A stretch of DNA of 64,000 nucleotides, from the NCBI GenBank assembly GCA_021775525.1, contig JAJFHQ010000075.1:62001-126000 (forward strand), written 5' to 3'. The DNA is from Hyphomicrobiales bacterium. GTDB taxonomy: Bacteria > Pseudomonadota > Alphaproteobacteria > Rhizobiales > Methyloligellaceae. The position numbers and the translations under genes were made by a program. The notes beneath the pieces are model-generated. The model had not been told where the DNA came from. It worked only from the letters and a program-made list of their open reading frames with translations, and ran no database searches. Shown piece after piece: positions 11,915 through 36,228 of the stretch. Positions within the stretch are counted from its first letter, which is position 1. Every line of letters begins with the position of its first letter.

Positions 11915-12619
11915 ATGGATCAGGTTGACTGGAAACTGATCAAGTCAGCCCCATTGTTCGATGGCGTTCCCGATGAAGCGGTCATGCGTCTCATCGGCAA
12001 TCATGCACCGAAAAGTTTCAACAAGGGCACCGTACTGTTCCAGAAAGGCGACATTGCCAGCGCCTTCTATTTCATCCTGGATGGCTGGGTTAAAATCTAC
12101 CGCATCTCGCCAGTTGGGTCTGAGACCGTTGTTGGCCTGTTCACGCGCGGCGAGTCATTTGCCGAAGCCGCCATGTTCAACGGCGGCCAGTACCCGGTCG
12201 ATGCGGAGATCGTTTCCCCAAGCCGCATGCTGTGTATCCACGCAAATACATTCCGCACGCTCGTGCATGACGAACCTGACCTGGCACTTGCCATGCTGGC
12301 GTCTTGCTCGAAGCATCTGAAGTTTCTCGTAGAGCAGCTTGAGCAGATCAAACTGTTGTCAGCGCCGCGCAGGATTGCGGATTTTCTTGTCGGCCTTTGC
12401 CCCGCCACATCCGGACCCTGCAAGATCACCCTGCCATACGAGAAATCCCTCATCGCCAACCGGCTGGGCATGCAACCTGAGAGCTTTTCACGCGCGATCA
12501 CGAAGCTGCGCCCGCTGGGCGTGGTGGTGGAGCGCGAACATGTGGATATCGCCGATGTCACCACCCTCAAGCAGTATGCCGGGCGCCACGATGACGAGCC
12601 CGGGCACAACACCCTTTGA
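11915..12619 (+). CDS. Crp/Fnr-family regulator, Dnr/NnrR type
   Basis: 234 aa: cyclic-nucleotide-binding-like domain (about 10-125), dimer helix, then a winged helix with recognition segment MQPESFSRAITKLR. The E-S-F-S-R residues are those that read TTGA half-sites in FNR/DNR proteins. The N-terminal cysteine cluster of FNR is absent, so it is not an oxygen-sensing iron-sulfur protein. Dnr/NnrR proteins sense NO, probably through heme, and switch on nir and nor genes. It lies tail-to-tail with nirN, 14 nt apart, and its expected target TTGAY-N4-RTCAA occurs at 19664, 23742 and 36215. A fixK-like role cannot be excluded. Confidence 0.85.
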   Translation: MDQVDWKLIKSAPLFDGVPDEAVMRLIGNHAPKSFNKGTVLFQKGDIASAFYFILDGWVKIYRISPVGSETVVGLFTRGESFAEAAMFNGGQYPVDAEIVSPSRMLCIHANTFRTLVHDEPDLALAMLASCSKHLKFLVEQLEQIKLLSAPRRIADFLVGLCPATSGPCKITLPYEKSLIANRLGMQPESFSRAITKLRPLGVVVEREHVDIADVTTLKQYAGRHDDEPGHNTL

Positions 12620-14214: not shown

Positions 14215-15400
14215 GGCGCTTTCCTCTGAAGGGCTTCACGGTCAGGCGCTCACCGCCATCAGTAATGCCAATTTCTTCATCACTCAGATAGCAGGCCGGA
14301 TCTTCCGCCCAGGGGTCACCGGTGAGTTGCAAGGCGCGCACCCGCGTATTGCCGCCACAGATGTCAAAGTGGCGGCATTCACCGCATCGTCCGCTGATGG
14401 TGCGAGGACGTTGTTTGAGCCCGGCCATTATCGGGTCAGCCGTGTCAGGCCAGATTTCGGAGAAGGCCCGCTCTTTCACATTGCCCAGATTGTAGTGCCA
14501 CCAGAAGGTGTCCGGGTGGACGTTACCAAGATTGTCGATGTTGGCGACATTGACGCCGCTGGCGTTTCCTCCCCACTGTACCAGCTTGGCGCGGACATGC
14601 TCTGCGGCTTCAGGGAAATGCTTCTTCACCCAGAAATAAAGGAACACGCCGTCGGCATCGTTATTGCCGGTCACAAATTCCTTTTCCTCGCCCTTTTCGA
14701 CATAGCCCCATGCGCGCTCAAATAGCGTCTCCATGGTGTTGCGTGTGATTTCCCACTGGGCGTCGTCCATACGGTTCTTGTTGCCTCGCCCTGCGTAAAC
14801 CAGGTGGGAGAGGTAGAACTTGTCTACGCCTTCCGCATCCGCGAGGTCGAGAAGCTCCGGCAGTTGCACATGGTTATCCATGGTCATGGTGAAGCGCAGG
14901 CCAACCTTGATGTCGTTCTGCTTGCAAAGCCGCACACCGCCAAGCGAATCCTTGAAGCAGCCATCCTTGCCGCGAAACGCATCGTGAGTGGCGCCGATGC
15001 CGTCGAGCGAGATGCCGACATAGTCGTAACCGATCGAGGCGATTTCCTCGATATTGTGGACGTTGATGAGCGCGCCGTTGCTCGACAGCCCGGTATAGAA
15101 ACCCATGCCCTTGGCGCGACGGGAGATATCAAAAATATCGCGTCTGAGAAGCGGCTCTCCACCTGACAGGATGAGAACGGGCACGCGGAAGCCTTTCAGG
15201 TCATCCATCACTGCGAACACTTCGTCGGTCGACAGTTCGCCGGGGAAATCCACATCGCCCGAAATCGAGTAGCAATGCTTGCATTTCAGATTGCAGCGCC
15301 GGATCAGGTTCCAGATAACCACGGGCCCCGGCGGGTCGCGGCGCGGACCTGCCGGTGTGGGTGACTTGATCTCTTTCAGAAACTGGCTGAGTCGGAACAT
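14186..15400 (-). CDS. nirJ: NirJ, radical SAM enzyme of heme d1 synthesis
   Basis: 404 aa. Radical SAM motif CNLKCKHC (C36, C40, C43) and a SPASM-like second cluster site near the C-terminus (CGECRHFDICGG... then DPACYL). NirJ removes propionate chains from 12,18-didecarboxysiroheme on the way to heme d1. I start at the ATG at 15400 because AGGAG stands 6-7 nt before it. The open frame runs 28 codons further but overlaps nirH. Sits between nirH (14 nt gap) and nirN (29-bp overlap). Confidence 0.93.
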   Translation of the reverse strand: MFRLSQFLKEIKSPTPAGPRRDPPGPVVIWNLIRRCNLKCKHCYSISGDVDFPGELSTDEVFAVMDDLKGFRVPVLILSGGEPLLRRDIFDISRRAKGMGFYTGLSSNGALINVHNIEEIASIGYDYVGISLDGIGATHDAFRGKDGCFKDSLGGVRLCKQNDIKVGLRFTMTMDNHVQLPELLDLADAEGVDKFYLSHLVYAGRGNKNRMDDAQWEITRNTMETLFERAWGYVEKGEEKEFVTGNNDADGVFLYFWVKKHFPEAAEHVRAKLVQWGGNASGVNVANIDNLGNVHPDTFWWHYNLGNVKERAFSEIWPDTADPIMAGLKQRPRTISGRCGECRHFDICGGNTRVRALQLTGDPWAEDPACYLSDEEIGITDGGERLTVKPFRGKRHEAEHIVQA

Positions 15401-15414
15401 GCAATTCTCCTGGG

Positions 15415-15888
15415 TCAGGCGGCAATACGCAGCCCTGTTTTCTTCAAGATCCTTGTTGAATAAAGAATGTCTTGCGACCTGCACGCCGGTCCGAGAAGAT
15501 CGGCAATGACGCTCGCCTTCTCTTCAACTTCGTCACGGCTTTTCCCGTGTACCATTGCGAACAGGTTGTAGGGCCACACGGGCAGGCTGCGTGGGCGCAG
15601 GTAGCAATGGCTGACAAAATCAAGAGCGCCAACTTTTGCGCCCAAATCCTTCGCCAACGCATCGTCCAGGTCCCAGACCGACATGCCGTTGGCGTTGAGT
15701 CCGAGCTTGTAATGGTTCGGCACTACACCGATCCGGCGGATCACGCCCGTATCGTCCATGCTCCTGATACGCTGCATCACCTCTTCAGGCTCAAGGCCAA
15801 GTTCCTCGGCAACCTTGTGGTAAGGCTGCGCAACCAGCGGCAAACCGGCCTGCGTAGCAGCGACGATTTTACGGTCGATCTCGTCCAT
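15415..15888 (-). CDS. nirH: NirH, siroheme decarboxylase subunit (AsnC/Lrp-like)
   Basis: 157 aa of the AhbA/AhbB-NirDLGH family: winged-helix N-terminus, then the ferredoxin-like domain with YLRPRSLPVWPYNLFAMVHG, the block that distinguishes NirL/NirH-type from NirD/NirG-type subunits. Together NirDLGH decarboxylate siroheme to 12,18-didecarboxysiroheme in the cytoplasm. The ATG overlaps the nirG stop as TGATG. An in-frame GTG lies one codon earlier. Confidence 0.88.
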   Translation of the reverse strand: MDEIDRKIVAATQAGLPLVAQPYHKVAEELGLEPEEVMQRIRSMDDTGVIRRIGVVPNHYKLGLNANGMSVWDLDDALAKDLGAKVGALDFVSHCYLRPRSLPVWPYNLFAMVHGKSRDEVEEKASVIADLLGPACRSQDILYSTRILKKTGLRIAA

Positions 15889-16334
15889 CACGCATCCACC
15901 TGTAGCCGTACGAAAAATTCGTGTTCCTTTGGAAAGGCATGGACATTGAGCCCGGTCTCGGCCTCAATCTCTCCGATGACCGCATCGATACGTTGCGGGT
16001 CCTCTGTGCCCAGCACGAACCAGACATTGAGCGCATGCACACGCTCGTAATTATGCGCTACCTCTTCATGGGTGTTGACCAGCTCAACCACCTCGTCGAA
16101 ACGGTCATGCGGCACGGCCATGGCGCACAGGCAAAAAGCGCCGCCCATAGCCTCGGCGTTGTACATGGGACCGAAGCGTGAAAGCACGCCCTCTTCCCGG
16201 AGCCGGGCTATCCTTGCCACGAGATCACTTTCCTCAAGGTCCAGAGTTTTAGCGGCCTCCGCAAAGGGCCGCTCGCAAACGGGAAACCCGCCTTGTAGCC
16301 CGTTGATGATCTTGCGGTCCGTAGCATCGAGCAT
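15888..16334 (-). CDS. nirG: NirG, siroheme decarboxylase subunit (AsnC/Lrp-like)
   Basis: 148 aa. Winged helix MLDATDRKIINGLQGGFPV followed by the VAHNYERVHALNVWFVLG block shared by the NirD/NirG type. Start at 16334 is preferred: GAGGGAG is 6 nt upstream and the gene begins 11 nt after nirDL ends. The long open extension to 16535 lies inside nirDL and is not homologous. Works with NirDL and NirH on siroheme. Confidence 0.88.
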   Translation of the reverse strand: MLDATDRKIINGLQGGFPVCERPFAEAAKTLDLEESDLVARIARLREEGVLSRFGPMYNAEAMGGAFCLCAMAVPHDRFDEVVELVNTHEEVAHNYERVHALNVWFVLGTEDPQRIDAVIGEIEAETGLNVHAFPKEHEFFVRLQVDA

Positions 16335-16345
16335 GGCCATCTCCC

Positions 16346-17326
16346 TCACGCGACCGAAAGTCTGGCGCCGCGCTGTTTGAAACAGCGGCGGCTGAAAAGA
16401 ATATCCATGGAGGGATGGCCGGCGCGCGCGCTCAGTTCCTTGATCTGTTCCAGAACGGTTTCCCGGTCGCGGCCATGGATCATGCAGAAAAGATTGTACG
16501 GCCATTGCGGGCGATGCCGGGGGCGGCGATAGCAAAGTGTCACGAAGGGATATTCCGCGAACGTTTCACCAATTTCATCAACCTTGCCGTCTTCGATATC
16601 CCAAACCACCATGGCATTTGCGGTGTAACCAAGCTCGCGGTGGCGCACGACCAGCCCGAGGCGCTTGATAACCCCGCGCTCGACCAGCGCTTGAAGGCGT
16701 CTGATTACCATCTCCTCGGACATCCCGGCACGAACAGCAATTTCCGCATAGGGCCGCGGCCCGATGGGCAGTCCATTTTCAAGCGCACTCAGAAGTGCCA
16801 GATCTTCTCTGCAAATCTCTCCGCATCCATTGGTCCCGTTGCCGTTCGTTTTGCGGGCGCGTTTGGCAATTTCACCATCGCCGAGAGGAAAGCCCAAATC
16901 GATGTGATAGGCAGTGCGCAACGGCAAATCCAGAATCCCCAGGCCCGTCTTGCTCTCAATCCGCTCAATCGCATCATCAAGAGCCCTCCTGTCCTGGCCC
17001 GTCACCACGAACCAGAGATTGAAGTGGTGCTCGCGTTCGTAATTGTGATTGACGCCCGGCTCAAGATTGATGTGCTGCGCGACATCTTCCAGCCTCTCTG
17101 GGGGCACGGCCATCGCGGCAAGCGTGCTGGCGCCGGCCGTATTGGGGGCCACCACCGCGCCGACACGAGACAGGATACCGCTGCGCGAGAGTTCTGACAG
17201 CATGCCCAGAACCGTCAATTCGGACACACCCAGCCCCATGGCAATCCGGGCATAGGGCGAGGGGTCGAGAGGGAAGTCCCGTTGCCAGCCATCGATCAGC
17301 CGAGTTTGTGTCTCGCTCAACATCAT
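16346..17326 (-). CDS. nirD: NirDL fusion, siroheme decarboxylase
   Basis: 326 aa made of two AsnC-like halves. The first (1-150) has NHNYEREHHFNLWFVVTG of the NirD/G type. The second (about 170-326) has CYRRPRHRPQWPYNLFCMIHG of the NirL/H type. A charged linker (KRARKTNGNGTNGCGE) joins them. In Paracoccus the two are also fused (NirD-L), while in Pseudomonas they are separate. Starts 4 nt after nirF. Either of two adjacent ATGs may be used. Confidence 0.9.
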   Translation of the reverse strand: MMLSETQTRLIDGWQRDFPLDPSPYARIAMGLGVSELTVLGMLSELSRSGILSRVGAVVAPNTAGASTLAAMAVPPERLEDVAQHINLEPGVNHNYEREHHFNLWFVVTGQDRRALDDAIERIESKTGLGILDLPLRTAYHIDLGFPLGDGEIAKRARKTNGNGTNGCGEICREDLALLSALENGLPIGPRPYAEIAVRAGMSEEMVIRRLQALVERGVIKRLGLVVRHRELGYTANAMVVWDIEDGKVDEIGETFAEYPFVTLCYRRPRHRPQWPYNLFCMIHGRDRETVLEQIKELSARAGHPSMDILFSRRCFKQRGARLSVA

Positions 17327-17330
17327 CGCG

Positions 17331-18524
17331 CTACAGCCCTATCCTGTGAGCGCGCGCGGTCATGAATATTCCGCTCGGGCTTTGTGCCTTCAGCACCGCC
17401 AGTTTCCTGAACGAGCTGGTGTCGTAGACGTGCACTTCGTTGCTGTCCCGAACTGACAGCCAAACCTCATGTCCGCGCGGTGAAAATTCCATATGCAGCG
17501 CTGCAGGACCCGGCTTGAACTCATGTATGATCTTGAGCGAGGGAATGTCGACAACCTGGATGGTGTCATTGAGTGGATGGGCAAAATTCACCCATGCCTG
17601 GCGTCCATCGGGACGCGCCACTGCAAAAACCGGCTGTCCATGCACAGCTATTCGGCCTGCCTCCTTGAAAGTGCCGGCATCCATTACCAGCAATTCATGA
17701 CGCCCGACTGCGGGTAGCAGGAAATGTCCGCCACCCTCCGCCCAGCCTTCCAGATGCGGCATCTTGTAGACGGGAAGTTTTTTCTCACCCCTGCCATAGC
17801 CTGAAAGGATGCGTCTGGGCGCGGGCTCATCTGCCCACAAGTCAATATGGGTCAGCCCGTCTTCTCCAAACAGCCCGGCGATATAGTGTCGCCCATCACC
17901 CGTAATCAGGGCGTCATATGGCAGATCGCCAATATCCATGAAACGGGTGAGTTGAGGCTTTGAACCTGATGAGAAATCGGCAATCCAGATTTCACCCGCA
18001 TCATAGAGCGTGAAAATGAACCGGCGGCCGGGAGCGTCAACCAGCCCGACGGTTTTTGAGCGCTTGTCATTCTCAAAGGTTGCCGGGATGTCAGCCACAG
18101 GTTCCAAGGTATTTGCATCGAACACGCGGACACCGCCCGGCTTGTAGTTCGATACGGCTACCAGCTTTCCATCGTCGGAGATGGCGCCGCCAATGGCGTT
18201 GCCAGCCTGCAGGATGCGCTTGGTGATGACCCCCTCAAGTATATCTAGCTTGGTCAACCCGCCATCCCGTCCGAAGATATAAGCGTAGCGTTCATCCCGG
18301 GAATAGACGGCAGACGCGTGGGAGAGGTCTCCAAATCCCTCGACCCGGTGTAAAGTTTCGTGCGCAGTGGTATCGACGATCATTACCGAACCGCTTGCAC
18401 GTTCGATAATGACCGCTAGATCTCCAGTTCCGCGCAGCTCTCCCGGGCAGGCCGCGGCCGGCGATACCAAAGCGGCAGCAGCCGTTCCGAGGGCGGAAGC
18501 TTTCAGGAATTCGCGGCGTTTCAT
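17331..18524 (-). CDS. nirF: NirF, heme d1 biosynthesis protein with Tat signal
   Basis: 397 aa d1-type propeller without a cytochrome c domain. The ATG at 18524 overlaps the nirC stop (ATGA) and begins MKRREFLKASALG, a twin-arginine signal. The signal ends SPAAAC, so a lipidated cysteine is possible, as reported for NirF in Pseudomonas, though the lipobox is weak. NirF acts in the periplasm between NirJ and NirN in heme d1 formation. The extra 68 codons open upstream lie within nirC and are not real. Confidence 0.9.
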   Translation of the reverse strand: MKRREFLKASALGTAAAALVSPAAACPGELRGTGDLAVIIERASGSVMIVDTTAHETLHRVEGFGDLSHASAVYSRDERYAYIFGRDGGLTKLDILEGVITKRILQAGNAIGGAISDDGKLVAVSNYKPGGVRVFDANTLEPVADIPATFENDKRSKTVGLVDAPGRRFIFTLYDAGEIWIADFSSGSKPQLTRFMDIGDLPYDALITGDGRHYIAGLFGEDGLTHIDLWADEPAPRRILSGYGRGEKKLPVYKMPHLEGWAEGGGHFLLPAVGRHELLVMDAGTFKEAGRIAVHGQPVFAVARPDGRQAWVNFAHPLNDTIQVVDIPSLKIIHEFKPGPAALHMEFSPRGHEVWLSVRDSNEVHVYDTSSFRKLAVLKAQSPSGIFMTARAHRIGL

Positions 18525-18856
18525 TGCGGAAAACCCTTCTTGAGTTTGTCTGCAATCCACAGGGCCTCTTCCTTGCTCAGTTGGCCCTGCCAGGGCGGCA
18601 TGGGTTTGCCCGGTACGCCGTCGAGAATGATCGAAGCAATACTCTCGCTTTCGAACTCCTTGAGATCCTTCGGGAGGAGTGGCCCGCCAAGACCACCCTT
18701 GAGCGTCATGCCGTGGCACGAGCCACAATCCTGGCGCACCAGATGCGTCAGCCTGCGTTCAGCTGATTCGTCGAGCGCGAGTGCGGATGTCATGGTCACG
18801 ATGCAGGCGCCCATCAGGCTACTCAGCAGCAACCATATGATCGAAGGGCATTGCAT
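18521..18856 (-). CDS. nirC: NirC, small periplasmic cytochrome c
   Basis: 111 aa: signal peptide (MQCPSIIWLLLSSLMGACIV, cleavage near ALA-L), one CGSCH heme site (44-48), distal methionine in PGKPMPPWQG. Monoheme c-type cytochromes at this place in nir clusters donate electrons to NirS or serve d1 maturation. It overlaps the nirE 3' end by 38 bp and shares ATGA with nirF. A shorter start at 18814 would remove the overlap but also most of the signal peptide. Confidence 0.85.
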   Translation of the reverse strand: MQCPSIIWLLLSSLMGACIVTMTSALALDESAERRLTHLVRQDCGSCHGMTLKGGLGGPLLPKDLKEFESESIASIILDGVPGKPMPPWQGQLSKEEALWIADKLKKGFPQ

Positions 18857-22042: not shown

Positions 22043-23674
22043 TCAGGTGATGTGATCTATCCGGATCGTGACATTGAATTTGCCCGTTGGAGCGAAGAAA
22101 CCCTTGATGCGTTTCTTCTCCTTCAGGGTCTTGGTGTCATAGACCACGATCTCGCCGTTAGGCTTCAGGCTATCCTTGCGGTTCCAGACAGAAACCCAGA
22201 ATTCGCTGCCGCTTGCATTGAATTCAATGTGCAGGGCAACCTTGCCTTTTTCCTTGGTCACCCGGATCGTTTTGGCGATTTCGCCGGTCTTTTTGGATAT
22301 GACCTGGATCGACTGCTGGATATCGGGTTCAGGATGCTTGATCTGATCCGCCATCACATAGGGTGAATTTGGATGGGTGCGAATGAACAGACCAGCTCCA
22401 TCGGTTTCGATCTTCTTGCAGATCTTCCAGGCCTGATCAGGATGCCCCTTGGGATCATTGCCCCAGGACGTCACAAGGCCTTCACCAATATGCGTCGTTC
22501 CACCGACAGGCCCGCATTTCGGATCGACCCAGTTGGCGCCCGGTCCCGGATGCGGTTTTTTGCCTGTCTCAATTGAGGCGACCGCAGTAGCAGTTTCCGA
22601 GTCGACGACTTCCATGCGGTTAGACGCATTTGCGGCGATCTGGAAATAGCGGCCGGTCGGATCGAAGAAGCCATCATGCAGAAACTTGTGAGTATCCATC
22701 TGCACGATTTTCAGATTGTCCAGGTCCTTGTAGTAGACCTGCCACATCTGACCCAGTTCCTTGGTGGAAACAAGGAAGGAAGACTCCTTGGGTGTCGTAT
22801 AGACCGCAGCAACACGTGATTCATTCACATACTCACCGTCGACATTCACACCGCGCGTGGAGATGACCTTCAACGGCTGCATGGTGGCGGAGTCTACAAT
22901 CGCGAAATGCGGAGGCCAATAGCCGCCGCCAATGACATATTTGCCGTCACCGGAAATTGCCACATCGCGGGCGTCATATGCGATCTGAACCTCGGAAACA
23001 CGCATCTTGTCTGGCGTCTGCCAAAGATCAATCTTGGTCAGCTTGCCGTCGCGGCCCATGGTGAACCAAAAGCGGCCAATATTATCGACCTTCTCTTTTG
23101 CATGATGCTCCGCTGTCTTGAGCACATGCACCGCATAGCCGGTTTGAACGTGGGCGACGATTTCATGCTTGTCGCCATCAACAACAGCCACCTTGCCTGC
23201 ATCACGCTCGATGACCAGGAAGAAATTCTTCCAGTTACGATTATGCATCGGCTTTGTGGGGTAATCTTTCTCTTCCACAAAGATTTTGACGCTTTTCTTC
23301 ATTTCCGCCATCGACAGTTCAGCAGGAACCGGCGGCTCCATCTGAATGTAGGTGGACAGATCGGCAATCTGTTCCTTGGAGAAAATGTCGTCGAAATTGT
23401 TCATGCCACCTTCGGTACCGATGGTGATGATCTTCTCAAGACGCTTCTGTCCGAGCTTGCGCGTTTCCTTGGGCAACAGGCTTTTACCGGTCGCCCCCTT
23501 GCGCAGGACGCCATGGCAACCCGCGCAGCGCTGGAAATAGAGTGTCTTGGATTTTTCAAAAGCTTCTGGTGAAAGCTTCGGATCCTGGGCCTGAGCTCCG
23601 GTTGTCACCGCTCCAAACAGAGAGGCGCTAACCGCCAAACCCAGTACGAATCCTTTCCGTCCTGGCGTCTTCAT
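22043..23674 (-). CDS. nirS: NirS, cytochrome cd1 nitrite reductase (variant active site)
   Basis: 543 aa periplasmic enzyme reducing nitrite to NO. Signal peptide ends AQA near residue 29. Heme c site CAGCH (50-54). The d1 proximal histidine is H183 in TGYAVH. Of the two catalytic histidines known from Pseudomonas (His327, His369), the second is present as H375 in KKPHPGPGANW. The region aligned with the first reads RVAAVYTTPKESSF (287-300) and has no histidine; the alignment is from memory. An extra segment TAEHHAKEKVDNIGRF follows the proximal histidine. The ATG at 23674 has AGGGGA 6 nt upstream; an ATG at 23692 has none. A Dnr box is centred 75 nt upstream. Confidence 0.88.
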   Translation of the reverse strand: MKTPGRKGFVLGLAVSASLFGAVTTGAQAQDPKLSPEAFEKSKTLYFQRCAGCHGVLRKGATGKSLLPKETRKLGQKRLEKIITIGTEGGMNNFDDIFSKEQIADLSTYIQMEPPVPAELSMAEMKKSVKIFVEEKDYPTKPMHNRNWKNFFLVIERDAGKVAVVDGDKHEIVAHVQTGYAVHVLKTAEHHAKEKVDNIGRFWFTMGRDGKLTKIDLWQTPDKMRVSEVQIAYDARDVAISGDGKYVIGGGYWPPHFAIVDSATMQPLKVISTRGVNVDGEYVNESRVAAVYTTPKESSFLVSTKELGQMWQVYYKDLDNLKIVQMDTHKFLHDGFFDPTGRYFQIAANASNRMEVVDSETATAVASIETGKKPHPGPGANWVDPKCGPVGGTTHIGEGLVTSWGNDPKGHPDQAWKICKKIETDGAGLFIRTHPNSPYVMADQIKHPEPDIQQSIQVISKKTGEIAKTIRVTKEKGKVALHIEFNASGSEFWVSVWNRKDSLKPNGEIVVYDTKTLKEKKRIKGFFAPTGKFNVTIRIDHIT

Positions 23675-23741
23675 ATCGAATCCCCTAATCATTTCGTCTG
23701 TTGACGATACCGAACTCTAGGCACGCGGACCGGGGCAGTCC

Positions 23742-23755
23742 TTGACCCTGATCAA
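23742..23755. promoter_or_regulatory. Dnr/NnrR box between nirS and nnrS
   Basis: TTGACCCTGATCAA, i.e. TTGAT-N4-GTCAA on the nirS strand. Centre is 75 nt from the nirS ATG and about 82 nt from the nnrS GTG, so one palindrome could serve both divergent genes. Confidence 0.85.
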
Positions 23756-23830: not shown

Positions 23831-25087
23831 GTGGCGATTATTGTGAATCACACGCGGGCGCAAACAGGGCGCGGTTTATCAGAACCACCCAGTCGGGTAG
23901 CGACTTTTTTCTCCCATGCCTTCCGGCCATTCTTTCTTGCGGCCGGCATCTACGCGGCTCTCGCACTATCTGCATGGATTGCCTGGATTTCCATCCATGC
24001 CATGGGGGCAATGCCCGCTTTCATGACCGTCGCCGAGCCCCTGCATCTGTGGCACGCCCACGAAATGGTTTTCGGATTTGGCGTCGCGGCTGTTGGCGGT
24101 TTTCTCCTCACCGCCATCCCCAACTGGACAGGGGCTGAGCACAGCAGGGGCTTGGGGTTGGGCCTCATGTTTGCCCTGTGGTGCGCAGGACGCATGGCCA
24201 TGTGGTTCACGGCATTGGTGCCTCCCGCCCTGCCGATGTTTCTCGATCTTGCCTTTCTGCCCGTTCTCGGCTTCGCCGCCGGCCGGCAACTTGCCGTTCA
24301 ACCCGCCATTCGGAATGTGATCTTTTTCGCCCTGGTCTTCGCGCTGATTGTCGGGAATTTCCTTTTTCATATGGGAAGGCTGGAAGTGATCGATGACGGG
24401 ATGCGCCTCGGGGTCCTGCTCGGGCTGGGCACGCTTATGGTGATGATCGTCGTGATTGGCGGGCGCGTCATTCCCGCGTTCACCACCAATGCCCTGCGGC
24501 GCCAGGGGGTCGAAGAGACCCGGCTGCCAAAACGACGTGCTCCCGTGGATGTGGCCGCTCTTGTTTTCTCAGCAACCGTGTTCATCCTCCAGGCATTGGG
24601 CTTCGGTGATTCCATCATCGGCGTAGCAGCATTGTGTGCCGCACTCGCCAACGCGGTGCGCCTGTCAGGCTGGCGCGGGCTGGCTACGCTGAAACACCCG
24701 ATCGTCTGGGTGCTGCATCTGGGCTATATGTGGATTGTTATCGGCTTTGCTCTGCTTGCAGCCGCATACCTCACTGATTGGGTCAGCGATGTATCTGCCC
24801 TCCACGCCTTCGGGACAGGGGCGGCGGGAACCATGATCCTCGCCATTATGACGCGGGCATCCCTTGGGCATACAGGCCGTGCGCTAGAGCCTTCCCGCGC
24901 TATCGTTGCTGCGTATGTCCTTGTGTCCGTGGCGGCCATATTGAGATGTTTCGGCCCCTCAGCCGTCCCGCAATTTTACAACGAGATCATGATTGCCGCA
25001 GGCCTTGCGTGGATCACGTCTTTCACGCTGTTCACGATTGAGTTCGCGCCGATACTTCTCGGGCCTCGCGTTCAATCCGGAAGCTAA
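23831..25087 (+). CDS. nnrS: NnrS family membrane protein
   Basis: 418 aa, about twelve hydrophobic segments. NnrS marks: FFSHAFRPFFLAAGIY at the N-terminus, LWHAHEMVFGFG, IGGRVIPAFTTNALR, and MTRASLGHTGR near the C-terminus. NnrS is a heme- and copper-containing protein that protects cells from NO stress by limiting iron-dinitrosyl formation (Vibrio work). Starts with GTG. Divergent from nirS with a shared Dnr box. Its last 58 bp plus 36 bp downstream are copied at 28211-28304. Confidence 0.92.
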   Translation: MAIIVNHTRAQTGRGLSEPPSRVATFFSHAFRPFFLAAGIYAALALSAWIAWISIHAMGAMPAFMTVAEPLHLWHAHEMVFGFGVAAVGGFLLTAIPNWTGAEHSRGLGLGLMFALWCAGRMAMWFTALVPPALPMFLDLAFLPVLGFAAGRQLAVQPAIRNVIFFALVFALIVGNFLFHMGRLEVIDDGMRLGVLLGLGTLMVMIVVIGGRVIPAFTTNALRRQGVEETRLPKRRAPVDVAALVFSATVFILQALGFGDSIIGVAALCAALANAVRLSGWRGLATLKHPIVWVLHLGYMWIVIGFALLAAAYLTDWVSDVSALHAFGTGAAGTMILAIMTRASLGHTGRALEPSRAIVAAYVLVSVAAILRCFGPSAVPQFYNEIMIAAGLAWITSFTLFTIEFAPILLGPRVQSGS

Positions 25088-30350: not shown

Positions 30351-30749
30351 TCAAACGCCAAGCTGCTTGTGCAGCCGCGCATCCTTCGTCTTGAAGTGGT
30401 TGACGAACCAGTCACGCACGGCGGCAGCGAGCGCCTTTTTGTAGTCGGTGTCGGTTCCGGCGTCGAAATCGTCCATGATGTCGCGCAGATCGTCGAGCAG
30501 TTTTTCATGATCGGCCTTGTGATCTTCATACTCGTCATAGGCGTGCTTGCGCATCACTGTTTCCTCGAGTGCAAAATGGGCCGAGATCTTTGCGAACACC
30601 TCGCCAAGAAATCCGTTCACCGTTTCACGCGGTGCATTGGCGCCGATCTGGTCATGCAGCTCGTTGATAAGCTCGATCAGTTCCTGGTGCTCGTGATCCA
30701 CCTCACCCACACCGGTCTCGAATTCTTTTCGCCATTCAATCAGGGGCAT
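30351..30749 (-). CDS. Bacteriohemerythrin
   Basis: 132 aa four-helix di-iron protein. Ligand pattern: DHEHQELIELINELHDQ (first helix pair), HFALEETVMRKHAYDEYEDHKADHEKLL, and a final VRDWFVNHFKTKDARLHK, which is the complete H-x3-E, H-x4-H, H-x4-D scheme. Stand-alone bacteriohemerythrins bind O2 or NO. The ribosome site TAGGAGAG overlaps the stop of the preceding gene, so this is the last cistron of the reductase operon, suggesting NO binding or delivery. Confidence 0.92.
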   Translation of the reverse strand: MPLIEWRKEFETGVGEVDHEHQELIELINELHDQIGANAPRETVNGFLGEVFAKISAHFALEETVMRKHAYDEYEDHKADHEKLLDDLRDIMDDFDAGTDTDYKKALAAAVRDWFVNHFKTKDARLHKQLGV

Positions 30750-30758
30750 GAGTCTCTC

Positions 30759-31262
30759 CTACCGAAATATAAACCCGCCGGCATCGGCCTTGAAGTCAAT
30801 TGCCATATTTTGTCCCGCACTGAGAAAAATCTCGCGACGGGTCTCATAGTCGAAGCCTTCCGTGCTGCGACTGTCGCGCAGGCGTGCGATCACCATGTGC
30901 GTTCCCGGTTCGACCGCGAACTTACGGTAGATGCGCGCGGGGCCATCGCCGGCCAGCCCAATGGGTTTTAGTGAGATGTCAAGCAGCCGGGTTCCGTCAA
31001 CATCGAGTTGAACTTGCACGTTCACGCGCTTGCGCTCACAGGTGTTCGGCCGGCGTTCATTGGGTGGAAGCTTGGCAATCTCTTTTGAAGTCAGGCGTCG
31101 GCAGGCCTTGGTGCGATTGGCGCCATGGGCAAAACTGAGCTTGATCTGCGCTTTCCCTTCAGGAAATTGCTTGTAGACCGGTGCGGTAGCGAAATAGCCG
31201 ATCAGGCATGCGGCTGCCGCGTAGATAATGCCCTGCCCGGCAAACTGAAGAAGCCTAACCAT
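30759..31262 (-). CDS. Membrane-anchored periplasmic protein of unknown function, NO reductase operon
   Basis: 167 aa. One N-terminal helix (about 8-28), then a periplasmic beta-rich part with two cysteines (CRRLTSKEIAKLPPNERRPNTC) that could form a disulfide. Start at ATG 31262 is favoured: GGAG lies 6 nt upstream and it overlaps the preceding stop by 8 bp. The open frame to 31502 runs inside that gene. It is placed like orf1 of the norSY-senC-orf1 clusters described in Nitrosomonas, but I cannot establish homology. An assembly or FixH-like role is possible. Confidence 0.65.
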   Translation of the reverse strand: MVRLLQFAGQGIIYAAAACLIGYFATAPVYKQFPEGKAQIKLSFAHGANRTKACRRLTSKEIAKLPPNERRPNTCERKRVNVQVQLDVDGTRLLDISLKPIGLAGDGPARIYRKFAVEPGTHMVIARLRDSRSTEGFDYETRREIFLSAGQNMAIDFKADAGGFIFR

Positions 31263-32838
31263 CTGCAAGCTCCATGAGCTTTTTCCGGTCCGATGCCTTG
31301 TGGACAGGCGGTTTCTCTGCCGGGAGTGCCGAGAGATCATCGGTAAAGGCGCGCAACAGGGTATCCAGCTTGCCACGGCCGGCACGGCCAGCCCAGACAA
31401 CACGCAGTCTTTCGCGTGGGACGCGCCGGCGCAGTTGAGGGTCGCGCTCGCGTGCAATCCGGGCATCGGTCCAGCGCGTCCCGAAGCGCGCATGGCAGCC
31501 ATTCTCGGAACATCCCGTCAGGACAACCCCGTCAGCCAGCTTTTTCGACAGCACATAGTCGATGAAGGAGGGCGGAAGCTGCCCGATACAACGCATCGAT
31601 ACGGTGCGCACATTGTCCTGTTTAAGGCCCGACATGGATACGCCGTGATTGCAGCCGAACATCAGGATGCGGTTCTTTCCCTTAAATGGCTGGCAAATTT
31701 TCTCGACCTCCTGGCGCAGGTCTGCAACCGTGCCATCGGGCAGGTCGATGCCGGCCACGAGATCTGACGCGCGGCGGAAGGGTGTCGCCGTTGGGCAGGC
31801 CCCGACGCAAATCCCACACGACACGCACATGGAGGGGTCGACTACCGCTTCACTCTCGAAGGGCAATCCGTCACTTCTCACGCGCATGGAAATGGCGTTG
31901 TAAGGACAATCGTTGGCGCAGCGGGTGCAGCCATTACAATTTTCGAGATTAACCTCCGCCACCTGTGTCTTGCGCATGGGTGGGAGCCAGGGAATGGAGC
32001 AGAAGAGAACCAAGATGACGCCGGCACCGCTCCAGGTCACCGGCCCGGGCCAGTTTTCCAATATCGGGTAAAGCGGCAGGTAGAACCAGTCGAGACCGAT
32101 TGAGCCCGGCACTTTCGCCAGGTCCGCCGGGCCCTGAGAAAGCGCGGGATGGACGAGTGACAAAACCAGCAAAGACGCCATGACGCCGATCGCCAGTCCA
32201 CGGGGCGGGTTAATGCGGGGCTTGGACACCCTCTGCAAATGCATCCACAGCAGAATGAGGGCAATCAGCGGAATGGCGATATGCATGAACACCATCAGCG
32301 AGAAGAACCGGCTCTCAAGCGCATCTGGCGAGAGGAAGTTTCGCGCAATCGGCTCCCCGAAGATCGGCAGATGGTCGAGCCATTCGGTGGTGACGATCGC
32401 CACATATTGCGCAAGCCGGTCCCAAACCAGCCAGTAACCGGTTATGCCGGCCACGTAGACCATGATCAGCACCGGCACGCCGGTTATCCAGCTGAACCAG
32501 CGCACGCCGCGATAGCGGTCGAGCGCGAATTCACGGATGAAATGCAGCAGCATGACGACGATCAAACCATCGGACGCATAGCGGTGCAGGGAGCGCATGA
32601 CACCTGCGGCGTACCATTGGTCACGGGTCATATATTCGATGGAGTCATAGGCCTGCGTCACGCCGGTATCAAAAAAGGCATACACGTAAATGCCGCTGGC
32701 CGTGATGATCCAGTAGAAGAAGAACCCGAGCGCGCCGAGATTAAGCAGCGGGTTCCATTCCGGCGGGAACACGAGGGCAAGGCCTCGCTCGGCCCGGTCA
32801 AATACGAACCGCAAAGGCGTACGAATGAAATCCATCAT
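31255..32838 (-). CDS. Cytochrome b / double [4Fe-4S] ferredoxin / MvhD-type fusion protein
   Basis: 527 aa. Residues 20-225: cytochrome b N-terminal fold with four heme histidines in two helices (LHRYASDGLIVVMLLHF and the later FMHIAIPLIALILLWMHL), i.e. two b hemes. Two further helices (about 230-300). Residues 310-370: two [4Fe-4S] motifs, CNGCTRCANDCP and CVSCGICVGACP. Residues 405-510: MvhD/FlpD-like module with GCNHG, MRCIGQ and GCSENGCH, known from electron transfer to heterodisulfide reductases. Starts ATGATG overlap the senC stop. Likely a membrane electron conduit between a quinone pool or soluble donor and the reductase; direction unknown. No heterodisulfide reductase gene is near. 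Confidence 0.85.
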   Translation of the reverse strand: MMDFIRTPLRFVFDRAERGLALVFPPEWNPLLNLGALGFFFYWIITASGIYVYAFFDTGVTQAYDSIEYMTRDQWYAAGVMRSLHRYASDGLIVVMLLHFIREFALDRYRGVRWFSWITGVPVLIMVYVAGITGYWLVWDRLAQYVAIVTTEWLDHLPIFGEPIARNFLSPDALESRFFSLMVFMHIAIPLIALILLWMHLQRVSKPRINPPRGLAIGVMASLLVLSLVHPALSQGPADLAKVPGSIGLDWFYLPLYPILENWPGPVTWSGAGVILVLFCSIPWLPPMRKTQVAEVNLENCNGCTRCANDCPYNAISMRVRSDGLPFESEAVVDPSMCVSCGICVGACPTATPFRRASDLVAGIDLPDGTVADLRQEVEKICQPFKGKNRILMFGCNHGVSMSGLKQDNVRTVSMRCIGQLPPSFIDYVLSKKLADGVVLTGCSENGCHARFGTRWTDARIARERDPQLRRRVPRERLRVVWAGRAGRGKLDTLLRAFTDDLSALPAEKPPVHKASDRKKLMELADG

Positions 32839-33632
32839 ACACGCCCGGTCGGAGATGGCGGCGGACGGCGCCATTCACGTATAAGGAAGGTGAGAATGAG
32901 GCTCAGGCACAGCAGTCCGATGGCAATCCCCACGAACAGCGAATAGTCAAAAATATATCGGCCCGTGTTGGGATCATACACCGTGCAGAACAGCTTGATC
33001 CTGTCGATGACGTTTTGAACAGACGACACGGGGGAGAAGCGGCCGAAGACGAGATCCTTTAACGGCTCGATGATAACCGGAGGCTCGAAAATGGCGCCGT
33101 AAACCTGCTGATAGAGCTTGCCGTCCTTGTCGACGATACTGACTTGAGCCAGATGGTCGTATCCGCCCGCGCGGCTGTAAAAGGCAAAGCCGACAGCGCT
33201 AGCCAGCGCGTCGAGATTTTGCTGGTCCGCGGAAAGGAAACGCCAGTTTGGGAGATCTATTCCGCGCTCACGCGCCAGGAGGCGCATACGTTCGGGCGTA
33301 TCAGCCCTGACATCGAACCCCACCGTGACTACGTTGAAGCTGTCTGGCCCAAGCGCTGACTGGGCTTCCTCTACGGCCGGGTAAAGCGACTCGATGAGCG
33401 TCGGGCAGACATCGGCGCAACTGGTATAGACAAGCGTCACCAGCAGTGGCTTTCCGCGGAACCCATTGATCGGTACGGACTCCCCCTCGGGGCTGGTCAG
33501 AACCACATCGGGAAGCGGCGTGCCAAGTGCCGCCTGTGACGTCTTGAGGGCCTGTTTTGCCTTGTCACTTTCCTGGGCCGGTGCAGCGATGAAGCTGACA
33601 ACCAGCATGACAAGGGCCAACATTGCTCTCAT
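32835..33632 (-). CDS. senC: SCO1/SenC-type copper chaperone
   Basis: 265 aa. Signal or anchor helix at the N-terminus (MRAMLALVMLVVSFIAAPAQ), thioredoxin-like domain with the copper motif CADVCP, and a C-terminal membrane helix (FVGIAIGLLCLSLILTFLI), which is less usual for SCO proteins. SCO proteins load the CuA site of subunit II, which fits the CuA-bearing subunit encoded two genes upstream. ATG at 33632 has GGGGAAGG before it; the upstream extension has no support. Confidence 0.88.
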   Translation of the reverse strand: MRAMLALVMLVVSFIAAPAQESDKAKQALKTSQAALGTPLPDVVLTSPEGESVPINGFRGKPLLVTLVYTSCADVCPTLIESLYPAVEEAQSALGPDSFNVVTVGFDVRADTPERMRLLARERGIDLPNWRFLSADQQNLDALASAVGFAFYSRAGGYDHLAQVSIVDKDGKLYQQVYGAIFEPPVIIEPLKDLVFGRFSPVSSVQNVIDRIKLFCTVYDPNTGRYIFDYSLFVGIAIGLLCLSLILTFLIREWRRPPPSPTGRV

Positions 33633-33652
33633 GTGAAATGCCTTCCCCGCCC

Positions 33653-35389
33653 CTAACCCAGTGGCCAGATTTCGGACAGGTACTTCCAGTTCACGAAATA
33701 GTAGAGCACAAACGAGACGAAGAAGACCGAAACCAGGATGTAGGTGCCGGGCAAATTCCATGTGCCCGCGCTGCCATATTCCTTGATCGCAGAGCTGACC
33801 TGGCGTTGAGGCATTGGCCCGAGCGCAGCGACGATATTCTTGCTGTCGACCTTCTTGCCGAACAACACGGTGCCAACCGTGATGAGGATATAGAGCGCAC
33901 CGCCGAGCGAGGCGACGACCGCGAAGACGCCATTGAGACCCATCATCAGGAACGCTGTTGCGGGATAGTCGAAGCTCACGGCGGCATCGGAGAAGGTGAT
34001 GTCCCAGTGACGGCGCGACACACCGAGCGTACCCGCCCCCATCATGAACAGCGAGATACCGGCGGCGCCCAGCCCGAACAGGTAGGGCTGTATTTTAGCC
34101 AGCTTCGGCCAGATTACTTCGCGCTGGAAGATCAGCGGCAGGACCAGGTAAGTCATTGCCATGAAAGCCAGCGTCGTCCCGCACACAACAGTCGCGTGGA
34201 AGTGGCCAGGCACGTAAATCGTATTGTGCAGCATCAGGTTGATCTGCTCGGTGCCAAGCACGACACCCGAGATGCCGCCGAGGAACCCGAACAGGGTCAG
34301 CGACAGGAACATGCCGGAAAATGCCGGGTTGCCCCATGGTGCCTTGCGCAGCCATTCAAACACGCCGTTCATATAACCGTTTCTGCGTTGTGCTGCTTCA
34401 ATCGCTCCAGGCAAGGTCATGCCGTGGATCATGCTGCCCAGAACCGCGAGATAAAGCGCGTAGGACGTATTGAAAATACGCCATTCCGCGCTCAATCCCG
34501 GCTCCACCAGCAAGTGATGCGCGCTGGCAAGTTGGAGGAACAGGATGTAGAGGAAAAAGGCCGTACGGCTGACCTTTTCGGACAACGGCTTGGCCCCGAC
34601 CGTGATGGCGGCAATCGCATACCAGATCGAGACCTGTGCAGCCATGTTGATCTGCTGCGAGGAATGTCCCATGCCCCACCAGATCACCTTGTACATCACA
34701 GAATCGATGTGGGAGATGTAGCCAACAGACCACAGGAATGTCGGGACCAGTATGATCGCGCCGCTGGCAAGAGTGAAAACAGCGATGATCGCCGCGACAA
34801 TAGCGCCGAAGGTCACCAGCGGAACGGACCCCTCATAGGTTTGCTCCTCCTTGGCGATCACCAGCGTCCCGAAGAACACAATAGTGCCCAACAGCGCACC
34901 GACAGCGAACAGGATCAGGCCCAGATAGAAATGCGGTTCCGCCTTCATTGGCACGTAGCTGGTGAACATGACGGAGCTATCGCCCTGAAGCACGGCCACA
35001 TTTGTCATTAGACCGCCAAAAAGCATCAGCCCAAAGGCAGCCCATGCCACCTTGGGCGCGGCAAGCCTGCAGTTCAGTAGCACCGAGGATGCAAAATAGA
35101 GCACCGCCATTTCAAAAAAGATGATCCATAGCAACAGCACATCAAGCCCGTGGGCCGTCAGGACAAGATAGAACCAGTCACTGGGGAGCAGATGCACGGC
35201 CGGCCAGCGCGTGAGCGCCACCATGAGCCCGAAAACTCCACCAACAAGCAGGAATACCACGGCCGCCACAGCATTGGCCTTGATGAGGCTTTGCGCAGCA
35301 AGGTCAACTTTCAGGCCGGTGGCCGGACATGTACGGAATTTCGCGGCGATACCGCCCATAATCCCGGTTTCAGCTGTCGCGATAGACAT
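33653..35389 (-). CDS. Heme-copper oxidase superfamily subunit I, putative sNOR-type nitric oxide reductase (NorS-like)
   Basis: 578 aa, about twelve to fourteen helices. All metal histidines are present: H80 (low-spin heme, TAHGLDVL), H242 (CuB, GMGHSSQQ), H291-H292 (CuB), H396 and H398 (YVPGHFHA; high-spin and low-spin hemes). In oxygen reductases the CuB helix reads HPEVY. Here it is H242-SSQQ, so glutamine 246 replaces the cross-linked tyrosine needed for O2 cleavage. That loss, plus a Dnr box and SenC/CuA neighbours in norSY-senC order, points to NO reduction. Calling it an O2 reductase is unlikely; eNOR-like or another NOR class remains possible. Confidence 0.75.
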   Translation of the reverse strand: MSIATAETGIMGGIAAKFRTCPATGLKVDLAAQSLIKANAVAAVVFLLVGGVFGLMVALTRWPAVHLLPSDWFYLVLTAHGLDVLLLWIIFFEMAVLYFASSVLLNCRLAAPKVAWAAFGLMLFGGLMTNVAVLQGDSSVMFTSYVPMKAEPHFYLGLILFAVGALLGTIVFFGTLVIAKEEQTYEGSVPLVTFGAIVAAIIAVFTLASGAIILVPTFLWSVGYISHIDSVMYKVIWWGMGHSSQQINMAAQVSIWYAIAAITVGAKPLSEKVSRTAFFLYILFLQLASAHHLLVEPGLSAEWRIFNTSYALYLAVLGSMIHGMTLPGAIEAAQRRNGYMNGVFEWLRKAPWGNPAFSGMFLSLTLFGFLGGISGVVLGTEQINLMLHNTIYVPGHFHATVVCGTTLAFMAMTYLVLPLIFQREVIWPKLAKIQPYLFGLGAAGISLFMMGAGTLGVSRRHWDITFSDAAVSFDYPATAFLMMGLNGVFAVVASLGGALYILITVGTVLFGKKVDSKNIVAALGPMPQRQVSSAIKEYGSAGTWNLPGTYILVSVFFVSFVLYYFVNWKYLSEIWPLG

Positions 35390-35407
35390 TATCTTGCCCT
35401 TTCCCCG

Positions 35408-35962
35408 TTACTGGCTTTTGCCAGGTTCGACGACATTTATGCGGCCCACCATCTGGTGGTGGCCCTGACCGCAAAATTCATTGCAGATCACACCAAATGT
35501 TCCGCTCTGGGTCGGTGTGAGTGTGACGACATGTTCAATCCCCGGATGGACCTGCAGGTTGATCCCGATCGGCTGGAGAGAAAACCCGTGCTGCCAGTCG
35601 AGCGACGACAGGTGCAGCCGGTAGGTCTGACCCTTCTCCAGCTCCAGCATCGGCCACCATTCCCAAAGGCGGGCGAGCATGTAGACATCACCACCCGCGG
35701 GCGGCTTTGCCACCGGATAGCCGGTATTTTCGTCCTCGCGCACGGTAAATTTTTTCGTGAACTCCTCGGTGCGCTGCTCAAAGACTTTCGGGCTGATGCG
35801 GTAGGCCTCGTTTGAGAAATTCTGATTCCCCTCGATATGCCAGTAGACCATCATGGAAAACATGATGATCCCCCAACAGAAGGCGATGGCGATCCAGATT
35901 AGTTCCCCGCGCTCAATTCGCTCGTTCCACCAGATTCGCTCTTCAGGAGAAGTTATTGCCAT
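35408..35962 (-). CDS. CuA-containing subunit II of the heme-copper reductase (NorY-like)
   Basis: 184 aa. One N-terminal membrane helix (about 22-42), then a cupredoxin domain with a complete CuA site: H in DWQHGF and the loop CNEFCGQGHHQM (C-x3-C-x3-H-x2-M). It takes electrons from a periplasmic cytochrome c or cupredoxin and passes them to subunit I. Only 18 nt precede the subunit I start. Short for a subunit II because it has only one helix. Confidence 0.88.
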   Translation of the reverse strand: MAITSPEERIWWNERIERGELIWIAIAFCWGIIMFSMMVYWHIEGNQNFSNEAYRISPKVFEQRTEEFTKKFTVREDENTGYPVAKPPAGGDVYMLARLWEWWPMLELEKGQTYRLHLSSLDWQHGFSLQPIGINLQVHPGIEHVVTLTPTQSGTFGVICNEFCGQGHHQMVGRINVVEPGKSQ

Positions 35963-35974
35963 TGGAGTATCTCC

Positions 35975-36148
35975 CTAGTTGGCGATAGGTATCTGGGTGA
36001 GCTCGATCACACCCCACAGGATGTAAAAGACCGTGGGGAATACGACCCCTAGGAAAAGCAGCAAAAACGGGTTGTCGAGCACCCTCTGCATGAACGGAAT
36101 TCTGACCGAAGTCGTTGTGCTGACCTCTGTATTTGAACTTTTTGCCAT
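35975..36148 (-). CDS. 57-residue single-helix membrane protein, first gene of NO reductase operon
   Basis: Starts MAKSSNTEVSTTTSVRIPFM, followed by a hydrophobic helix (about 30-50: FLLLFLGVVFPTVFYILW) and ends QIPIAN. AGGA lies upstream of the ATG at 36148, and the stop TAG is part of the next gene's ribosome site. Short single-helix subunits often accompany heme-copper oxidases (CcoQ- or subunit IV-like). Its place first in the operon suggests an accessory subunit. No named family recognised. Confidence 0.7.
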   Translation of the reverse strand: MAKSSNTEVSTTTSVRIPFMQRVLDNPFLLLFLGVVFPTVFYILWGVIELTQIPIAN

Positions 36149-36214
36149 GACGTTCCTGCCCCTTTTGGAAGTGTGGCTGTCGGGGCAATTTATCGGCGTG
36201 CAGAACTGGACGCC

Positions 36215-36228
36215 TTGATCGAGGTCAA
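36215..36228 (-). promoter_or_regulatory. Dnr/NnrR box upstream of the NO reductase operon
   Basis: TTGATCGAGGTCAA (TTGAT-N4-GTCAA), centred 73 nt before the ATG of the 57-aa protein. Its N4 and right half are the same as at the nirE box. Confidence 0.85.

Follow-up and report, generated by a model that had tools for sequence, protein, structure and literature searches.

We analysed a stretch of 64,000 nucleotides (nt) from a Hyphomicrobiales bacterium of the family Methyloligellaceae (assembly GCA_021775525.1, contig JAJFHQ010000075.1, positions 62,001 to 126,000), below referred to as the window. Attention was focused on an operon of seven genes for a heme-copper enzyme which, from its sequence, we assign to the eNOR family of nitric oxide (NO) reductases, a family reportedly treated by Hemp and Gennis in 2008 and by Murali et al. 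in 2024. Besides a small membrane protein and subunits II and I, the operon encodes a SenC-type copper chaperone, a fusion of cytochrome b with ferredoxin and FlpD domains, a membrane-anchored protein, and a hemerythrin. A cluster with the nitrite reductase gene nirS lies 6.7 kb from the operon in the same window (Table 1).

Structure of the operon and its upstream region

The seven reading frames lie on the minus strand, from 36148 to 30351, and are tightly packed: neighbors overlap by no more than 8 nt or are separated by up to 20 nt. The first-pass annotation had described seven packed genes behind a TTGAT-N4-GTCAA box, and the coordinates, the gene composition, and the exact box were all recovered at the same place. 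Start codons of SenC, the cytochrome b protein, and the anchored protein were chosen in this analysis, the likelier starts being 33632 for SenC and 31262 for the anchored protein. Five operon proteins matched families in the Pfam or NCBIfam listings, and the 57-amino-acid (57-aa) and anchored proteins matched none.

A second exact copy of the box lies at 23742–23755, upstream of nirS. With up to one mismatch allowed, the window contained nine matches versus 3.8 expected, and nine were reached in 5 of 100 shuffles; the box by itself is weak evidence. The evidence becomes strong because the box is conserved across orthologous upstream regions. The pattern TTGA[CT]N4[GA]TCAA was present in 54 of 79 such regions (each at least 300 nt, the window's own region included), with a mean of 0.11 and a maximum of 1 in 200 shuffles.

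Table 1. Features of the operon and of the nirS island (window coordinates)
Feature	Position	Strand	Basis
FNR/DNR-type box TTGATCGAGGTCAA	36215..36228		exact match; first ATG 66 nt downstream
57-aa membrane protein, one helix, probable small enzyme subunit	35975..36148	-	one hydrophobic stretch; homologue in 79/79 loci
Subunit II, CuA domain and N-terminal anchor	35408..35962	-	COX2 PF00116; H125, C160, E162, C164, H168, M171
Subunit I, eNOR-type heme-copper NO reductase (assigned)	33653..35389	-	COX1 PF00115, E 1e-63; clade and residues
Codon CAG of Q246, replacing the active-site tyrosine	34652..34654	-	read from sequence
SenC/SCO copper chaperone	32835..33632	-	PF02630
Cytochrome b + 2x[4Fe-4S] ferredoxin + FlpD/MvhD domain	31255..32838	-	PF00033, Fer4, PF02662
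Anchored beta-sandwich protein	30759..31262	-	predicted fold; 70/70 loci
Bacteriohemerythrin	30351..30749	-	NF033749, 109.5 bits vs. cut-off 84
NirS, cytochrome cd1 nitrite reductase	22043..23692	-	PDB NirS 424 bits vs. 6rtd 195 bits; own exact box 23742-23755
NnrS	23831..25087	+	PF05940, E 3.7e-105
Heme d1 synthesis: NirJ, siroheme-decarboxylase-like (AhbA/AhbB) genes, NirF-like	14186..18728	-	
NirN	12634..14214	-	PDB chain 6rtd 585 bits vs. NirS 114
CRP/FNR-family regulator, candidate DNR	11915..12619	+	PF00027 and PF13545

Active site and phylogenetic position of the enzyme

Subunit I possesses the full set of six metal-ligand histidines (H80, H242, H291, H292, H396, and H398). In helix VI, the His+4 residue is Q246; A- and B-type oxygen reductases carry tyrosine here. 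Both features had been noted in the first-pass annotation and are read directly in the sequence. An alignment of 51 rows was made from 24 Gln-type and 24 B-type proteins together with two A-type proteins and the cbb3 protein of the source genome. Glutamine occupied the His+4 position in 24/24 eNOR-type rows and tyrosine in 24/24 B-type rows; the two A-type proteins of the source genome also had tyrosine there. Its cbb3 protein had glycine at this position and, in helix VII, a tyrosine six positions ahead of the HH pair, which we take to be the active-site tyrosine of C-type oxygen reductases. At that place, the window protein has L285. The residues Y257, S319, and H322 were invariant at the places of Y248, S309, and T312 of ba3, with H322 also aligned to the A-type lysine; the ba3 numbering and the proton-channel roles of these places are our assumption. 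In subunit II, H125, C160, E162, C164, H168, and M171, presumably the CuA ligands, were near-invariant in 81 rows, as was E20. The structural model of subunit I had a mean predicted local distance difference test (pLDDT) value of 58 and values below 50 over residues 261–400. Its best match to heme-copper oxidases (Z 31.1, root-mean-square deviation (rmsd) 3.3, 457 aligned residues) shows the fold and cannot place side chains.

According to PMC8756737, the active-site residue is Tyr in oxygen reductases, Glu in cNOR and qNOR, Asn in sNOR and CuANOR, Gln in eNOR, and Asp in gNOR. With Gln246 against the Asn of this table, the window enzyme carries the residue of eNOR and not that of sNOR. According to the same source, putative eNORs occur in numerous Alpha-, Beta-, Gamma-, and Deltaproteobacteria, and eNOR is named among biochemically characterised enzymes in PMC11388526. 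A reference set of 67 NO reductases spanning cNOR, qNOR, bNOR, eNOR, gNOR, sNOR, and nNOR is mentioned in PMC12569097. The first-pass annotation had named the enzyme sNOR. This name was abandoned, since the diagnostic residue is glutamine and the closest relatives with a name, from Defluviimonas, Thermus, and Thermomicrobium, are of the Gln type; we place the operon in eNOR, a known NO reductase family, on the basis of its sequence.

A phylogeny of subunit I had been proposed as a check in the first-pass annotation; a tree made from Gln-type rows and oxygen reductases agreed with this placement. The 24 Gln-type rows (Pseudomonadota, Thermus, and Thermomicrobium), with the window protein among them, formed one clade (support 100/98) apart from the 24 Tyr-type B-family rows. 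The rows had been grouped beforehand by residue, and the tree then split these groups across one branch; the long cbb3 branch makes the deep branching order unreliable. In plasmid records, the nearest relatives of subunit I were the proteins of Defluviimonas sp. SAOS-178 (70% identical), Thermus thermophilus (46%), and Thermomicrobium roseum (44%), all of them Gln-type. The remaining plasmid matches were approximately 23–32% identical, one Thermus fragment excepted. An annotated nitrite reductase is encoded on the same plasmid stretch as the Thermus eNOR. No Asn-type reference was found among 19 of 59 plasmid records (3 Gln-type, 15 Tyr-type, and an Azospirillum protein, L158, without a readable B-type motif), nor among 15 weak matches (3 + 12) from two genome samples, all Tyr-type, with partial and lower-scoring matches left out. 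A contig binned as Saprospiraceae (L024) contained an eNOR 79% identical to that of the window, through either misbinning or transfer.

The window enzyme resembles the eNOR family in glutamine at the tyrosine position, six histidines, and a CuA subunit II encoded upstream; the family occurs in Pseudomonadota and Chloroflexota, and a Thermus protein is included in the eNOR tree. The order subunit II–subunit I–senC matches the norSY-senC-orf1 cluster of ammonia oxidisers (sNOR), as had been stated earlier, and CuA is also common to both. This order is not diagnostic, however, because it is shared by sNOR and the Bacillus CuANOR clusters. Unlike the window enzyme, sNOR has Asn in the active site, and its cluster as listed names no cytochrome b/FlpD gene (orf1 was not compared). 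The bNOR/CuANOR cluster of Bacillus azotoformans is similar in its small membrane protein, CuA subunit II, subunit I, and senC, with ctaB in addition in B. bataviensis, but the enzyme has Asn in the active site.

Conservation of the operon and maturation genes

At least 585 relatives were confirmed. The best 80 (72–97% identical) were taken for comparison, so the following counts describe near relatives, wherever the contig was long enough. The small membrane protein was present in 79/79 loci, subunit II in 80/80, SenC in 77/77, the cytochrome b/ferredoxin/FlpD fusion in 76/76, the anchored protein in 70/70, and the hemerythrin in 68/69. The earlier claim that the extra genes exceed the published cluster is correct with respect to norSY-senC-orf1, but these genes are not specific to this genome, being a conserved part of the operon in the Pseudomonadota examined. 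Cultivated relatives that possess this operon include Defluviimonas sp. SAOS-178 and Hyphomicrobium sp. CS1BSMeth3. The small membrane protein probably belongs to the ancestral enzyme because homologues can be discerned in Thermus (39% identical) and Thermomicrobium (46%). Compared with these two copies, the window operon adds SenC, the cytochrome b/Fe-S/FlpD protein, the anchored protein, and the hemerythrin; in neither case was any of this tail annotated within 9 kb of the eNOR gene.

In SenC, the CxxxC motif and one histidine were near-invariant in 78 rows. Of 78 related operons, 64 had a heme O synthase gene between those of subunit I and SenC; one such gene was tested with TIGR01473 and scored above the cut-off. 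The place of this gene in the operons suggests that in most near relatives the enzyme probably receives a farnesylated heme. The window operon has no heme O synthase gene, and the only CtaB of the source genome above the family cut-off adjoins the aa3 oxidase gene. In Thermomicrobium roseum, the eNOR subunit I gene is followed by an annotated heme o synthase of approximately 600 codons (L087:10868-12670), perhaps fused to a heme A synthase-like part.

The His/Glu/Asp residues of the hemerythrin family were near-invariant in 69 rows, and the protein probably has NO or O2 as its ligand, in the cytoplasm. It was mostly not found in the more distant Pseudomonadota loci examined, where it was seen in L152 only, and is thus the least constant part of the operon.

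The nirS island and co-occurrence with cytochrome d1 proteins

NirS of the window contains the histidine stretches of the Pseudomonas aeruginosa enzyme, whose functional roles we assume. The NirN assignment takes PDB chain 6rtd to be NirN (the record itself says cytochrome c). The candidate DNR has cysteines at positions 107, 131, 162, and 169 only; given these positions, and under an assumed rule linking cysteine positions to an FNR-like N-terminal cluster, it would lack such a cluster. The island also holds a uroporphyrinogen methyltransferase gene.

Four PF00115 proteins were found in the source genome (85.9% complete): aa3, a bo3-type, cbb3, and subunit I of the operon. No cNOR or qNOR was among them; other kinds of NO reductase were not searched for. 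No clade I NosZ was found in this genome; the search did not include the clade II model.

Co-occurrence was assessed in 398 sampled Pseudomonadota genomes, with a threshold of E <= 1e-40 for cytochrome d1 proteins. eNOR was present in 31 of the 398 genomes (34 matches minus three weak ones of the Tyr type), which span 12 families, with 13 genomes in one of them. Cytochrome d1 proteins were detected in 27 of these 31 genomes vs. 27 of the 367 others (Fisher 8e-23, kinship ignored).

NO reduction by the operon enzyme is well supported, the activity being deduced from the nearby nirS cluster, the absence of another heme-copper NO reductase candidate, the recurrence of the box, and the co-occurrence with cytochrome d1 proteins. 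The pairing of the enzyme with NirS, suggested in the first-pass annotation, is supported.

Several further observations were made in the nirS island and around related operons. A NapC/NirT-family cytochrome joined to an ethylbenzene-dehydrogenase-like domain (PF09459) is encoded at 20159–21916 (minus strand) in the island, and siroheme-decarboxylase-like (AhbA/AhbB) frames, three side by side and one of them double, occupy 15415–17326 (minus strand). The source genome encodes two NirS-type proteins; that of the window scored 378 bits to PF02239 and the other, which is encoded on a different contig (G000:C74:41196-42383; L107, L132), 506 bits. Within 16 kb around the second one, the NirN, NirF, and NirJ queries from the window matched no further gene. 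Near some eNOR operons, there is a second heme-copper-oxidase-like subunit I (L153:12893-14413(+), L122:3127-4650(-), L066:2254-3642(+), L030:3212-4993(+), and L017:612-2042(+)). It has 'GGGHxLQF' and 'PAHYHG' stretches and no CuB HH pair, i.e., it shares the fold but its CuB site is incomplete, and it is not among the four PF00115 proteins of the source genome.

The cytochrome b/ferredoxin/FlpD protein and the anchored protein

The heme-b ligands H84/H98/H185/H199 of the fusion protein line up with H99/H113/H204/H218 of the bc1 cytochrome b of the source genome and form two bis-His sites. At the PEWY place of bc1 cytochrome b, DW[FLY] was found in 16/16 aligned rows (13 F, 2 L, and 1 Y), with the preceding proline in one. 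Hydropathy revealed five strong hydrophobic segments; homology to bc1 suggests one more helix, the sixth, carrying the first two histidines, and a C-terminal part that lies in the cytoplasm. Eight ferredoxin and four FlpD cysteines were near-invariant in 77 rows, and the C-terminal half resembles HdrA2 (model E 1.4e-20) and MvhD chains.

The protein is thus similar to cytochrome bc1/b6f in its two bis-His heme-b sites and the motif at the PEWY place. Unlike bc1/b6f, it has cytoplasmic ferredoxin and FlpD regions in place of the last helices, and there is no Rieske protein or cytochrome c1 within the operon; no Rieske match was present in the Pfam or NCBIfam listings of the operon proteins. The ferredoxin and FlpD C-terminal region is shared with HdrA2/MvhD/Qmo-type complexes, but in the window protein it is joined to a bc-type diheme cytochrome b and not to flavin or hydrogenase subunits. 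An ORF with cytochrome b6, iron-sulphur, and FlpD domains plus a cytochrome c domain (RME88945.1) is listed in a table row of PMC8756737.

In the 398-genome sample, the cytochrome b/FlpD protein was encoded by 30 of the 31 eNOR genomes and by four others, 34 in total (Fisher 1e-39, kinship ignored). The contig of the sole eNOR genome lacking the gene (G069) stops just past SenC, and this gap is probably an assembly edge. In seven of the loci examined, the gene was located 0.7–1.4 kb from nirS, and in one more at 6.2 kb. Since in several genomes it lies near nirS and away from eNOR, the protein tracks denitrification rather than eNOR alone. Two copies close to each other were observed in L120, L121, L122, and L124; in L122, one copy is partial, and an anchored-protein match lies between the two. 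Selenocysteine in the FlpD part was considered, as one TGA occurred in each of seven matches, and rejected: in L109 and L117 the TGA is a true stop overrun by the profile (the other five were not checked individually).

The AlphaFold 2 (AF2) model of the anchored protein (mean pLDDT 94.9) consists of a helix (residues 2–26) followed by eight strands forming a beta sandwich. H46, C54, and C75 were invariant in 70 rows. A match to this protein accompanies the cytochrome b/FlpD gene at every examined locus reaching far enough behind it, and the two proteins are fused in five loci (L042, L049, L058, L069, and L080). The Pfam search gave no consistent match, Foldseek no match at E <= 0.001, and the sequence profile nothing under E 1.4 against the PDB. 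The best VIA-align rows (Z 8.9, rmsd 2.5–2.7, 93–94 aligned residues) were 8jkv ('membrane proteins') and human HGSNAT 8vly, and AlgF domains followed at 8.3 and 7.3; none of these indicates a function.

Proposed function and alternative explanations

We consider it likely that the operon encodes an eNOR reducing NO made by NirS to nitrous oxide (N2O), equipped with a maturation layer and a cytochrome b layer for electron input. NirS next door would make NO, and the CuA-containing eNOR would reduce it to N2O with electrons entering at CuA. SenC would load copper, and the heme O synthase in the operons of relatives suggests that the active-site heme is a modified one. The cytochrome b/ferredoxin/FlpD protein and its anchored partner may form a bc1-derived, Rieske-free complex that would oxidise quinol at a Qo-like site and pass electrons to the periplasmic side, where a carrier supplied by it could serve both NirS and eNOR. 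On the cytoplasmic side, the Fe-S/FlpD arm of the complex could exchange electrons with a carrier there. The direction of electron flow, the partners, and the accessory functions are deduced from anatomy, co-occurrence, and fusions, by which the extra genes, chiefly the cytochrome b fusion, probably feed electrons to eNOR.

A number of observations weigh against this interpretation. The tree contains no sNOR, bNOR, cNOR, or R. marinus eNOR rows. Cytochrome d1 matches were missing from 4 of the 31 eNOR genomes (drafts 74, 75, 83, and 88% complete), and in four draft genomes the cytochrome b protein was found but eNOR was not; in G121 and G278, the contig breaks within SenC, where eNOR would follow, and G137 and G145 are unexplained. 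As the operon lacks CtaB, the window enzyme may use either heme b or heme o/a. The Qo motif is altered (DWF for EWY), and the PF00032 (C-terminal cytochrome b) match at this place is marginal (E 0.05). No c-type heme motif CxxCH was found in the six larger operon proteins, and the anchored protein belongs to no recognised redox family, so no periplasmic exit for the electrons was recognised. As for regulation, 25 of the 79 orthologous upstream regions lack the box. Because FNR, DNR, and HcpR sites are similar according to PMC1274295, the type of box cannot single out DNR. Thus, of the control by Dnr claimed in the first-pass annotation, the FNR/DNR type of control is retained, given the box in 54 upstream regions, but DNR specifically is not.

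The most serious alternative accepts the eNOR but regards the cytochrome b/FlpD protein and its anchored partner as serving either assembly or repair of NirS and eNOR or disposal of cytoplasmic electrons into the quinone pool. The richness of the operon family in maturation genes (SenC and CtaB) agrees with it. The Fe-S/FlpD arm is probably cytoplasmic, as its predicted topology suggests, and hence away from NirS and the site of NO, and the FlpD homologues with solved structures belong to hydrogenase and heterodisulfide complexes, which are cytoplasmic. Catalysis, however, accounts better than assembly for the two intact pairs of heme-b ligands and for the conserved motif in the position of PEWY, and we regard this alternative as possible but not as the favored explanation. 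It is rather unlikely that the enzyme serves NO detoxification and not energy conservation. The hemerythrin in the operon, NnrS nearby, and the lack of a clade I NosZ in the source genome (the clade II model was not searched) would agree with detoxification, but the full nirS/d1 island around the operon speaks against it, and the polar residues at the K-channel places (Y257, S319, and H322) suggest respiration. The two roles are not mutually exclusive.

An extension of the proposed scheme is electron splitting, in which quinol oxidised at the Qo-like site would deliver one electron on the outer side, for NirS and eNOR, and the other would move inward through both hemes b, two [4Fe-4S] clusters, and the FlpD cluster and reduce a low-potential carrier in the cytoplasm. 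We consider this improbable; if true, the large driving force of nitrite and NO reduction would pay for reduced ferredoxin or NAD(P)H.

That the enzyme is a high-affinity O2 reductase, as PMC6967387 argues for the sNOR of Nitrosomonas, seems very unlikely. The sequence is indeed ba3-like with a full CuB-type histidine set. FNR-type boxes serve microoxic genes too. Yet there is no tyrosine at the A/B position (Q246) or at the C-type position (L285), where the cbb3 of the same genome has one, and the nirS linkage and the co-occurrence also argue against O2 as the substrate. Identity with sNOR, the norSY-senC enzyme of ammonia oxidisers, is hardly credible: the same gene order and the B-type-like sequence of subunit I would agree with it, but the order recurs in the Bacillus CuANOR cluster, and Gln246 in place of Asn speaks against it.

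Implications

An eNOR acting on NO from NirS thus remains our preferred explanation, and the NO reductase family itself is known. The accessory complex was not found described in the literature examined. Among the literature matches listed, with Murali et al. 2024 not covered, there was no published description of the operon with this complex, the only trace being the RME88945.1 row in PMC8756737.

In the records examined, eNOR subunit I bears the name of a cbb3-type or a b(o/a)3-type cytochrome c oxidase. Because of such annotation as an oxidase, NO-reducing capacity can be missed in nirS genomes without cNOR or qNOR, and the source genome seems to be one of these. The conserved accessory genes offer a testable candidate route of electrons to eNOR and NirS, and a Rieske-free derivative of the cytochrome bc complex would, if true, be of interest for bioenergetics.

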